Source: Candidatus Palauibacter australiensis
GTDB lineage: Bacteria; Gemmatimonadota; Gemmatimonadetes; Palauibacterales; Palauibacteraceae
DNA: 37,811 nucleotides
Assembly: GCA_026705295.1 (NCBI GenBank)
Contig: JAPPBA010000107.1
Location: forward strand, 1 to 37,811
Direction of reading: 5' to 3'
Of the stretch, positions 12,533-15,316 are shown piece by piece; within the stretch, counting starts at the first letter, position 1, and every line of letters begins with the position of its first letter. The position numbers and the translations under genes were made by a program. The notes beneath the pieces are model-generated. The model saw only the letters and a list, made by a program, of their open reading frames with translations, had not been told where the DNA came from and did not search any database.

Positions 12533-13042
12533 TCACACTTCCATGAGGTCGCGCGTCAGCAGCAGCGCGACCGGCGAGAGCGAACTCTGCGACAGCGTGT
12601 ACGCCTCGGCGATCTCCTTCGCGACGAGCGCCGGATCTCTCGCGTGGTGGTAGGGGATGTTGAGCGCCTGCAGCAACCCCTCCGTCACGATCCCGCCACG
12701 AGTGTGCCACGGGTAGGGCTCGCCCCAGTGGCCCCGGACCGCGATGAGCATGCAGAGCGGGACGGAGTAGAGCTGGGCGAGGGAGATGATCCCGTTCATT
12801 GCCGCGAAGAAGCCGTGGTTCTGCATGAGCAGGATGTGCGGCTCGCCGGCGAAGTAGGCCCCGGCGGCGATGCCGACCGCCTCCTCCTCCTTGGCGACCT
12901 GGATGAGATCGACCTCGGGATCGTCCTCGGCGCGCTGCAGGAGGAGACCGAGCCATGTCTCCGGCAGAGCGGAGATGCTGCGGATGCCGGCGGCCTTGAT
13001 CCCGTCGAAGACGGCCTTCGAGTTCTCGTAGGAAACGGTCAT
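12533..13042 (-). CDS. Pyrimidine-binding subunit of the split 2-oxoacid decarboxylase (sulfopyruvate decarboxylase alpha-like)
   Basis: This 169-aa protein corresponds to the N-terminal (PYR) half of a ThDP decarboxylase. The cofactor-activating Glu lies in the AKEEEAVGIAAGAYFAG segment. The following MQNHGFFAAMNGIISLAQLYSVPL and RGHWGEPYPWH motifs are like those of ComD and phosphonopyruvate decarboxylases. With the next gene it should form an alpha/beta enzyme. The ATG at 13042 lacks a clear Shine-Dalgarno site. No phosphosulfolactate synthase, phosphonate mutase or other coenzyme M gene is nearby, so the pathway is unknown. It is divergent from the DUF4143 ATPase, with a repeat array between them. 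Confidence 0.78.
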   Translation of the reverse strand: MTVSYENSKAVFDGIKAAGIRSISALPETWLGLLLQRAEDDPEVDLIQVAKEEEAVGIAAGAYFAGEPHILLMQNHGFFAAMNGIISLAQLYSVPLCMLIAVRGHWGEPYPWHTRGGIVTEGLLQALNIPYHHARDPALVAKEIAEAYTLSQSSLSPVALLLTRDLMEV

Positions 13043-13091
13043 GCGCCGAACGGTGCGCGCAGGAGCCCAAGTGGCGCAATCCCCATCGCCG

Positions 13092-13179
13092 AAATGACGA
13101 TTGGACGATGAAACAATAACGATCAGACGCGGTGCAAATAACGATTGGACGAAGATCGAATAACGATCAGACGCGGTTT
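13092..13179. repeat. Iteron-like array: two 44-bp units, each with two half-repeats (22-bp period)
   Basis: Positions 13092-13135 and 13136-13179 are direct repeats about 85% identical; the last 19 bases of the shared core are exact. Each unit contains ACGATTGGACG and ACGATCAGACG 22 bases apart. The motif ACGATYRGACG therefore occurs four times, at 13097, 13119, 13141 and 13163, always 22 bases apart, about two helical turns. The array lies in the 161-base gap between the divergent decarboxylase and ATPase genes. A cooperative protein-binding site (operator or iteron) is the natural reading. It is too short and lacks the spacers of a CRISPR array. Confidence 0.7.
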
Positions 13180-13203
13180 CCGGCGTGACCCCAGGCTGTT
13201 ACG

Positions 13204-14469
13204 ATGGGCAACATGCAACGATCCACGCCCATGTATCGACGTCTGGCGGCCCGCTTCGTCAAGGAGGCGCTCTCCGACACGCCGGTCGTCTTCCTCATGG
13301 GCGCGCGGCAAGTCGGAAAAACCACGCTGGTTCGAACTCTGATCGACGAAACCTGGGAATACATCACGTTCGACGACCGCGCGCAGTTGGAGATCGCCCG
13401 CGCGGATCCCGTGGGCTTCATACGTAACCTGCCTGCGAAGAAGATCGCGCTCGACGAAGTGCAGCGCGTTCCCGATGCGCTCCTCGCGGTCAAACAGGCG
13501 GTGGACGAGGACCGCACGCCCGGCCGCTTCCTGCTGACCGGCTCCGCCAACGCCATGCTGCTGCCCAAGTTGGCCGATGCCCTGGTTGGGCGAATGGAGG
13601 CCGTCCGGCTGGCGACACTGTCCGAGTGCGAAATCGCCGCTCGGGAACCCAGCTTCATCGACACCATGCTGCGGCTGGAAATGCCGGTGGCCGCCGAGGT
13701 GCGCGTAAGGGACCGCTTGGTGCGGCGGATCGTAGCGGGCGGATTCCCCGAGCCCTTGGCCCGAACGAGCGAGCGGCGGGCCCGCGCGTGGCACGAGCAG
13801 TACATCGGTACCCTGGTGCAGCGGGATCTGCGTGAACTCGCCCGCGTCGAGCACCTGGACGCGATGACGAAACTGCTCAAACTGACCGCCCTCTACTCCG
13901 GCCGCCTCGTCAATCTCGCCGAGCTTGGGGGCAGGCTGGGCCTGAACCGCCTCACCGTCGGCCGATACCTCGCTCTTCTGGAACAGCTCTTCGTCGTGGA
14001 GCGGCTGCCCGCGTGGCACACGAGCGAGTTCAAACGGCTCGTCAAGGCCCCGAAGCTGCACGCCGTCGACACGGGCATGATATGCGCCCTGCGCGGGATC
14101 AACCGGCACATGTTGCTGAACCGACCCGGCGAACTCGGGGCGCTGCTGGAGTCCTTCGTATACAACGAGCTGCGGAAGCAGGCGCTGTGGGCAGATGAAC
14201 CGCTGACGTTCCATCACTACCGAGACAAGGACAAGGTGGAGGTGGACATCGTCATTGAGACGCTGTCCGGCCGATGCTTCGCGATCGAGGTAAAGGCGGC
14301 GGCGGGTTTGACGGCCGGGGACTTCCACGCTTTGAGACGGTTTCGAACCGTCGCCGGCGACCGGTTCGGGGCAGGCATTCTGCTGTACGACGGTGACCAC
14401 GCCACAGCGTTCGGGGACCGGCTGTTCGCCGTGCCGATCGGGGCGCTGTGGGCGGGGACGGCAATGTGA
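13204..14469 (+). CDS. AAA ATPase with DUF4143 domain
   Basis: This 421-aa protein has an N-terminal P-loop ATPase domain with Walker [10 protein letters not shown] at residues 33-41 and Walker B IALDEVQ near residue 80, then LLTGSAN (sensor 1). The C-terminal DUF4143 half has a winged-helix region ([32 protein letters not shown]) and a nuclease-like VEVDIVIE...FAIEVKAA end, recalling PD-(D/E)XK folds. This family is widespread in bacteria and archaea, often strain-variable, and without a settled function. ATG 13204 or 13213 can start it; neither has a clear ribosome site. It sits alone between unrelated operons with a repeat array upstream, suggesting an independent, possibly mobile unit. 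Confidence 0.88.
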
Positions 14470-14554
14470 TCTCCTGTTCCACCCGCTTCGCCGTGGCGCG
14501 GCCGTTGCGCGGTCCAGCCGCGTGTGGGCACCATGGACGCAGCAAGGAGTGTGT

Positions 14555-15316
14555 ATGGACGAATCGGAAAGGCGGCCGGTCGACCGGCGCGGGTTCATCA
14601 GGGACGCGGCGGTGGGTGCGGCCGCATTCGCCGCCCCGGGGAAGCTGATGGCCGACCAGGACGAGTCACACGAGCACAGTCACGAGCACGACCACGACCA
14701 TGATCATCAGGACGTGCCGTCGGACATCGCCCTCCGGGTGCGGGCGCTGGAGTCCGTCCTCGCGGAGAAGGGGATGGTGGATTCGGCGGCGCTGGACGAA
14801 ATCGTGGACACGTACGAGAACCGGATCGGCCCGCGGAACGGAGCCGAGGTGGTCGCGCGCGCCTGGGTCGATCCCGCGTACCGCGAGCGCCTCCTCGCGG
14901 ATGGGACCGCGGCGATCGGCGAACTCGGCCATCTGGGCGGTCAGGGCGAGCACATGAAGGTCGTGGCGAACACCGCGGAGGTGCACAACCTCGTCGTCTG
15001 CACGCTGTGCTCGTGCTACCCGTGGCCGACGCTGGGCCTCCCGCCCGTGTGGTACAAGTCCGCCCCCTTCCGGGCGCGGGCGGTCATCGAGCCGCGCGCC
15101 GTGCTGAGCGAATTCGGTCTCGATGTGCCCGAGGATGTCGAGGTCCGCGTCTGGGACAGCACCGCGGAGATCCGCTACCTGGTGCTCCCGGAGCGGCCCG
15201 CCGGCACCGAGGAGATGAGCGAAGAGGAGCTGGCGGGGATCGTCAGCCGGGACTCGATGATCGGCGTGGCCCGGGTCGAGGCGCCAGCGGGAGGCCCGTC
15301 CGGAGGAGACCGGTGA
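14555..15316 (+). CDS. nthA: Cobalt-type nitrile hydratase alpha subunit with Tat-like signal and His-rich tract
   Basis: This 253-aa catalytic subunit hydrates nitriles to amides. The metal claw CTLCSC is at residues 149-154; Thr at its second position marks the cobalt type, and two of its cysteines are normally oxidised. The motif [16 protein letters not shown] and the end [14 protein letters not shown]...VSRDSMIGV are standard. ATG 14555 follows AAGGAG. About 50 extra N-terminal residues are unusual. DRRGFIR at 10-16 plus an Ala-rich core to residue 33 resembles a twin-arginine signal, and residues 39-51 alternate His with Glu, Asp or Ser (seven His). Export of a folded metalloenzyme is inferred. 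It overlaps nthB by four bases (GTGA). Confidence 0.92.

Follow-up and report, generated by a model that had tools for sequence, protein, structure and literature searches.

What does a short tandem array between two divergent genes serve, and which protein reads it? The question is raised by a 37,811-nucleotide stretch of Candidatus Palauibacter australiensis (contig JAPPBA010000107.1; hereafter the window), in which four ACGATYRGACG motifs at 22-bp steps, forming two 44-bp units, had been noted from the letters alone and likened to an iteron or an operator. All four are exact matches on the + strand, between positions 13097 and 13173, and they do lie between divergent genes. The sites are the following.

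13097 to 13107, + strand: core 1 of the putative operator, ACGATTGGACG, an exact motif match also found with the unit profile; its unit, GAAATGACGATTGGACG, lies at 13091-13107.
13119 to 13129, + strand: core 2, ACGATCAGACG, an exact match within the unit ACAATAACGATCAGACG.
13141 to 13151, + strand: core 3, ACGATTGGACG, an exact match within the unit CAAATAACGATTGGACG; it occupies the 17-bp spacer of a promoter-like pair.
13163 to 13173, + strand: core 4, ACGATCAGACG, an exact match within the unit CGAATAACGATCAGACG; it overlies the predicted transcription start, expected at about 13168-13172.

The alternation of TTGG and TCAG cores generates the two 44-bp units, which are 88% identical (13092-13133 against 13136-13177). 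The full motif spans approximately 17 bp (nnnTnnCRATYRGMCG) and recurs in head-to-tail orientation at intervals of 22-23 bp, a step of about two helical turns that places the sites on one face of the DNA. Taken singly, the motif is unremarkable, with 7 occurrences at no more than one mismatch in the window for 6.4 expected. Genome-wide searches that tolerated one mismatch gave too much noise to be of use. The 22-bp pair, searched with up to three mismatches through the whole 3.58-Mb genome, was found only here, as three overlapping pairs, and its reversed pattern gave no match. This uniqueness, the reversed controls and the sense-strand linkage to the ATPase gene described below rule out a chance repeat. 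An RNA hairpin was dropped as an explanation because the intergenic region of the window contains no inverted repeat. A direct DNA search of that region against plasmids returned short matches only, mostly within coding genes.

The two genes that flank the array are as follows.

13231 to 14469, + strand: AAA_14-DUF4143 ATPase (PADLOC PDC-S01), with matches to PF13173, PF13635 and PDC-S01; its start was chosen by conservation.
12533 to 13042, - strand: divergent TPP-enzyme N-terminal subunit (decarboxylase-like; PF02776), which lies outside the module and is kept in congeners that have no array.

Alternative ATPase starts are present at 13204 and 13213. Judging from sequence conservation, the start is most likely the ATG at 13231 (MYRR...) rather than 13204, which puts the end of the array about 57 bp upstream of it. 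A nitrile hydratase alpha-chain gene (window 14393-15313) is located downstream of the ATPase gene; it probably starts at the ATG at 14555 and not at the listed GTG at 14393, which falls inside the ATPase gene.

Comparison of the regions upstream of orthologous ATPases has revealed that the array is conserved across phyla. When each species was represented by a single genome, 74 loci with relatives of the ATPase were returned. Nearly every one has the array upstream, even where protein identity is as low as 38%; the taxa include Gemmatimonadota, marine gammaproteobacteria, Alphaproteobacteria, Legionella, Rhizobium, Acidobacteria and others. With a relaxed core, 88 pairs at exactly 22 bp were detected over approximately 75 ATPase loci, all of them on the sense strand (none on the opposite strand) and nearly all immediately upstream of the ATPase gene; the 3' side of the ATPase genes in these loci showed no such repeat. 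Most of the 56 genes with scoreable units have four units, successive ones being separated by 22 bp in 96 and by 23 bp in 46 of 146 cases. Similarly, the pair pattern was found 29 times in 150 Gemmatimonadota genomes, against once for its reversed control; 16 of these matches directly precede a DUF4143 gene, nine belong to arrays without an ATPase and four resemble chance matches. The longest array seen, of about seven units (TCAGTACCGATTRGACGG...), belongs to a gammaproteobacterial ATPase (L038), and at another locus (L066) the array directly precedes a truncated ATPase whose match starts at residue 256.

No gene is common to the ATPase neighborhoods across phyla, except within one gammaproteobacterial transposon lineage. 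In these marine gammaproteobacteria (L018-L035, L041, L050, L060, L063 and L217, the last being the plasmid copy of Marinobacter nauticus), a Tn3-family transposase adjoins the ATPase gene and MerR/metal-resistance genes are nearby, which suggests that the ATPase has spread among them via a single transposon lineage; L034/L035 represent two copies. Although this lineage carries the gene, transposon end repeats are ruled out, since no copy of the array is found 3' of it. A second conserved operon gene, as expected of a toxin-antitoxin module, is absent outside the same lineage.

Two promoter-like hexamers lie in the linkers of the array.

13133 to 13138, + strand: putative -35 element (TGCAAA) in the linker of cores 2 and 3; the equivalent position reads TTGNAA or TTCCGA in relatives.
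13156 to 13161, + strand: putative -10 element (TCGAAT) in the linker of cores 3 and 4, 17 bp from the -35 element; it aligns with TACGAT, TAAAAT or TATAAT in relatives.

Both hexamers of the window match the consensus weakly and are aligned with better ones in relatives. Throughout the clade of the window, the -35 and -10 elements occupy successive linkers, so that one operator core falls within the 17-bp spacer, and promoter-like pairs are embedded within the repeats of DUF4143 genes more generally. Of 98 proximal regions, 28 contain a pair resembling -35/-10 elements with a score of at least 10, against none of 98 distal ones, though the two sets also differ in GC content (55% vs 65%). In several DUF4143 clades (L204, L125, L116, L185 and similar), a -10-like hexamer is found 6-8 bp before the start codon, a distance that suggests leaderless transcripts.

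The gene product combines an AAA_14 ATPase domain (PF13173, E 8.7e-25, 87.6 bits for a cut-off of 27) with a C-terminal DUF4143 domain (PF13635, E 1.7e-43, 148.6 bits for a cut-off of 28.1), and it matches the PADLOC PDC-S01 model over its full length (E 3.6e-157, residues 6-414), as do all 65 aligned relatives with PDC-S01 models. It is thus a member of the PDC-S01 or AAA_14 + DUF4143 group (COG1373-type ATPases). The Walker A residues G30, R32, G35 and K36 are invariant in 65 sequences; among the putative PD-(D/E)XK-like catalytic positions of the aligned relatives, D345 is invariant, and E359 and K361 are more than 90% conserved. An AlphaFold model (mean pLDDT 94.9) places a winged helix between an AAA module and a C-terminal alpha/beta domain. 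The protein is modelled as an AAA ATPase followed by a winged helix-turn-helix and a PD-(D/E)XK-like domain. The segment of interest for DNA recognition is the following.

13849 to 14067, + strand: predicted winged helix-turn-helix, spanning ATPase residues 213-285 (numbered from the 13213 start), based on AlphaFold, Foldseek and profile matches.

Its modelled helices comprise residues 215-227, 235-242 and 246-258, the last being the recognition helix, and are accompanied by wing strands. When this fragment alone was submitted to Foldseek, the repressors CzrA, CodY, MepR and SmtB were returned (E about 0.002-0.01, probability about 1.0), and a profile search with the winged helix gave mostly HTH regulators, with weak E-values. 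The full-length model matched the Pyrococcus abyssi Walker-type ATPase 2qen, MalT and other STAND proteins, RuvB and ORC, in which a winged helix also follows the AAA module; 2qen was the best match, with a TM of 0.52 on the target, and these folds are only about 10-20% identical to the ATPase. They are not known to have the DUF4143 C-terminal domain. Weak fold matches to Card1/Cdn1 were also obtained with the full-length model, and a PDB sequence search with the single protein gave nothing informative. The ATPase had been described from the sequence as having no known role: its family is indeed uncharacterized, but it matches an unvalidated candidate family for single-gene phage defense and has a predicted winged helix.

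Repeats at the gene start are not confined to close relatives of this ATPase. DUF4143 genes were found in 77 of 150 Gemmatimonadota genomes, with up to about 22 scored matches per genome, some of them adjacent to one another (in G017, near 1.482-1.487 Mb). With 80 further DUF4143 genes added, the starts of 99 non-redundant genes were examined. A repeat, direct or inverted, reached z>4 at 49 of these 99 starts, against 3 of 98 regions further upstream of the same genes. Among other genes of the same loci, 17 of 185 passed this test, six of which are an ATPase gene or share the intergenic region of one; with these removed, about 11 of 179 (approximately 6%) remain. About half of the sampled DUF4143 genes fail this strict single-sequence test, and several of those have degraded or short repeats by eye.

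The periods of the direct repeats peak at 22 and 23 bp across DUF4143 genes, and the 22-23-bp repeats are specific to subclades (AATAACGATYRGACG, AACCTTNCAATYRGMCG, ATTCCGAATYGGACG, ATTTCTCGTAATAAG and others). Other subclades have palindromes (CCTTGAAAATCC...GGATTTTCAAGG, GGCTGATTCAA...TTGAATYAGCC, TTCACACCATGAA). Plasmid-borne examples inspected by eye show direct repeats in Marinobacter, Rhizobium etli, Prosthecochloris, Collinsella, Sulfitobacter and Skermanella, and palindromes in Moraxella, Runella, Paracoccus, Acidithiobacillus and Thiothrix; in two or three other named plasmid examples, a clear repeat was not seen by eye. The paralogues in the genome of the window itself have different sites. 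Anecdotally, two proteins that are apart in the tree (L039 and L154) have similar helix starts (SHVTIKKY and SHVTIRKY) and similar CTTTCAATTGG sites. Many DUF4143 genes carry their own repeat at the place where the window has its array, which suggests that each protein regulates itself.

The operator-like reading is thus supported by the non-random occurrence of the array and by its conservation upstream of orthologous ATPases. Two features expected of an autoregulatory operator were found, namely a repeat at the gene's own promoter whose linkage to the gene holds across lineages, and a predicted DNA-binding domain in the gene product. We consider, with a probability of about 0.72, that the array serves the downstream ATPase gene as its operator and that the ATPase binds it cooperatively and represses its own promoter. 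The ATPase would bind the sites through its winged helix, and its AAA module might let several copies line up next to one another along the array; on a palindrome, it would bind as a symmetric pair. The bound protein would block the promoter whose -35 and -10 elements sit between the sites, and the level of the ATPase-nuclease would thereby be held low and buffered, until something such as an infecting phage or plasmid strips the protein from the DNA and expression is released.

That the array, as an operator of the ATPase gene, might instead be read by a different, host-encoded repressor or activator is unlikely. The promoter architecture by itself is silent on the identity of the binder, and two covariation tests did not single out the winged helix or its recognition helix: 15-mer similarity, compared among 99 genes by a partial Mantel test, showed no signal for the winged helix, and in a refined test with explicit units over 56 genes, residues 11-24 (the N-terminal helix) and 199-212 ranked at the top and the recognition helix only weakly. 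On the other hand, the same array accompanies the gene into many phyla, its sequence differs from one ATPase subclade to the next, paralogues within a single genome included, and the genome of the window has the pair at the ATPase and nowhere else. The lack of a co-conserved gene outside the one transposon lineage makes a separate, co-inherited regulator unlikely. Together with the repressor-like winged helix and the paralogue-specific sites, it points to the ATPase as the binder. The sequence-only reading had found no binding protein; the ATPase itself is now the best candidate because of its predicted winged helix, but, as the covariation tests brought no confirmation, its role as the binder is inferred.

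It is rather improbable that the repeats primarily are docking or self-recognition sites of the ATPase-nuclease, used for sensing, for parking or for its own mobility, and not transcriptional operators. Such a role would suit a protein predicted to be an ATPase and to have a PD-(D/E)XK-like domain, encoded by a horizontally mobile module that is missing from the same site in relatives, as seen for the following segment.

13090 to 14528, no strand assigned: array plus ATPase gene, absent from the same site in most congeners by blastn against L271-L281.

Arrays can also outlast the gene. The locus L085 (G059), one of the Gemmatimonadota arrays without an ATPase, is collinear with L009 on both flanks of the ATPase, but its ATPase is gone while the array remains, and the closest relative left elsewhere in the genome has only about 35% identity. 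Orphan arrays with no ATPase behind them are also present in L084 (G128), L081 (G099) and L278 (G160), which makes at least three independent places. Their persistence in a few genomes speaks against the operator reading in so far as it could also suggest another ligand. Against docking as the main function, arrays occur on the 5' side only and in a single orientation, the 3' end has no matching repeat, and promoter-like elements are in register with the arrays.

An operator of the divergent decarboxylase pair, or one common to both genes, is very improbable, and as the primary role it is refuted. The array is intergenic and less than 60 bp from the decarboxylase start, and the sequence-only reading had linked it to that pair as well. 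However, the 11 congeners compared with the window (L271-L281) share its decarboxylase subunit (99-100% identical) and the nitrile hydratase gene beyond, and in nine of them both the array and the ATPase are missing from the site; L278 keeps three array units without an ATPase, and L275 keeps a single degenerate unit at the site. Elsewhere the array travels with the ATPase, and it has been gained, lost and conserved together with it. It follows that the array belongs to the ATPase module and does not serve as a decarboxylase operator; a side effect on the decarboxylase may occur in the strain of the window. Lastly, an iteron-type replication origin or plasmid remnant is scarcely credible. The 22-bp direct repeats are of iteron size and their geometry is confirmed, but the array follows a non-replication gene among TPP-enzyme subunit, nitrile hydratase and ATPase genes with no initiator gene nearby, no Rep gene is common to the relatives, the array accompanies the same non-Rep ATPase in chromosomes and plasmids alike, and the ATPase promoter sets where the array lies and how its units are spaced.

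In sum, the array exists and is conserved, and as a probable operator it is of an ordinary kind, but no description of one was found for the large DUF4143 family. Repression at a defense gene's own promoter by winged-helix or HTH proteins is familiar from the BrxR/CapW winged-helix WYL repressors associated with BREX and CBASS, and from the controller proteins of restriction-modification systems. In those systems the regulator has a gene of its own and its site is usually a single inverted repeat, whereas here the candidate effector itself has the winged helix, and the site in the subclade of the window is a head-to-tail array. In toxin-antitoxin autoregulation and with Rep proteins, a DNA-binding protein likewise represses its own promoter through repeats, those of Rep iterons being direct repeats of about 20-22 bp. 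In contrast, the DUF4143 module is a single gene with no toxin partner and no replication function, and both direct repeats and palindromes occur in the family.

PDC-S01 is reported to rank fourth in frequency among the defense candidates of prokaryotes and to be a fusion of an ATPase with a PD-(D/E)XK member; most candidates of this sort still await experimental validation (PMC12988326). In the literature searched, anti-phage activity of the DUF4143/PDC-S01 family was not found shown, and no published description of a cis-regulatory site, a DNA-binding role or autoregulation of DUF4143 ATPases was found, DUF4143 being named in one open paper only. In Thermus thermophilus, a gene annotated AAA_14/DUF4143/HTH was 6.6-fold up with plasmid in an Argonaute-positive strain (PMC4406477), which fits regulated expression but is no evidence for the array mechanism.

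DUF4143 ATPases are ranked among the most common defense candidates of bacteria and archaea, and nothing was found on their control or on the DNA that they recognize. The predicted recognition sites, with the empty sites and orphan arrays as natural controls, make DNA binding and autoregulation testable by simple assays. For the family as a whole, we give even odds to the broader proposal that DUF4143/PDC-S01 proteins are self-addressing, each reading a private operator, a 22-23-bp phased array or a palindrome according to subclade, with loss from the DNA triggering expression. Private sites may explain the coexistence of many paralogues in one genome: if the proposal is true, such operators would let twenty or more of them share a genome without cross-talk.
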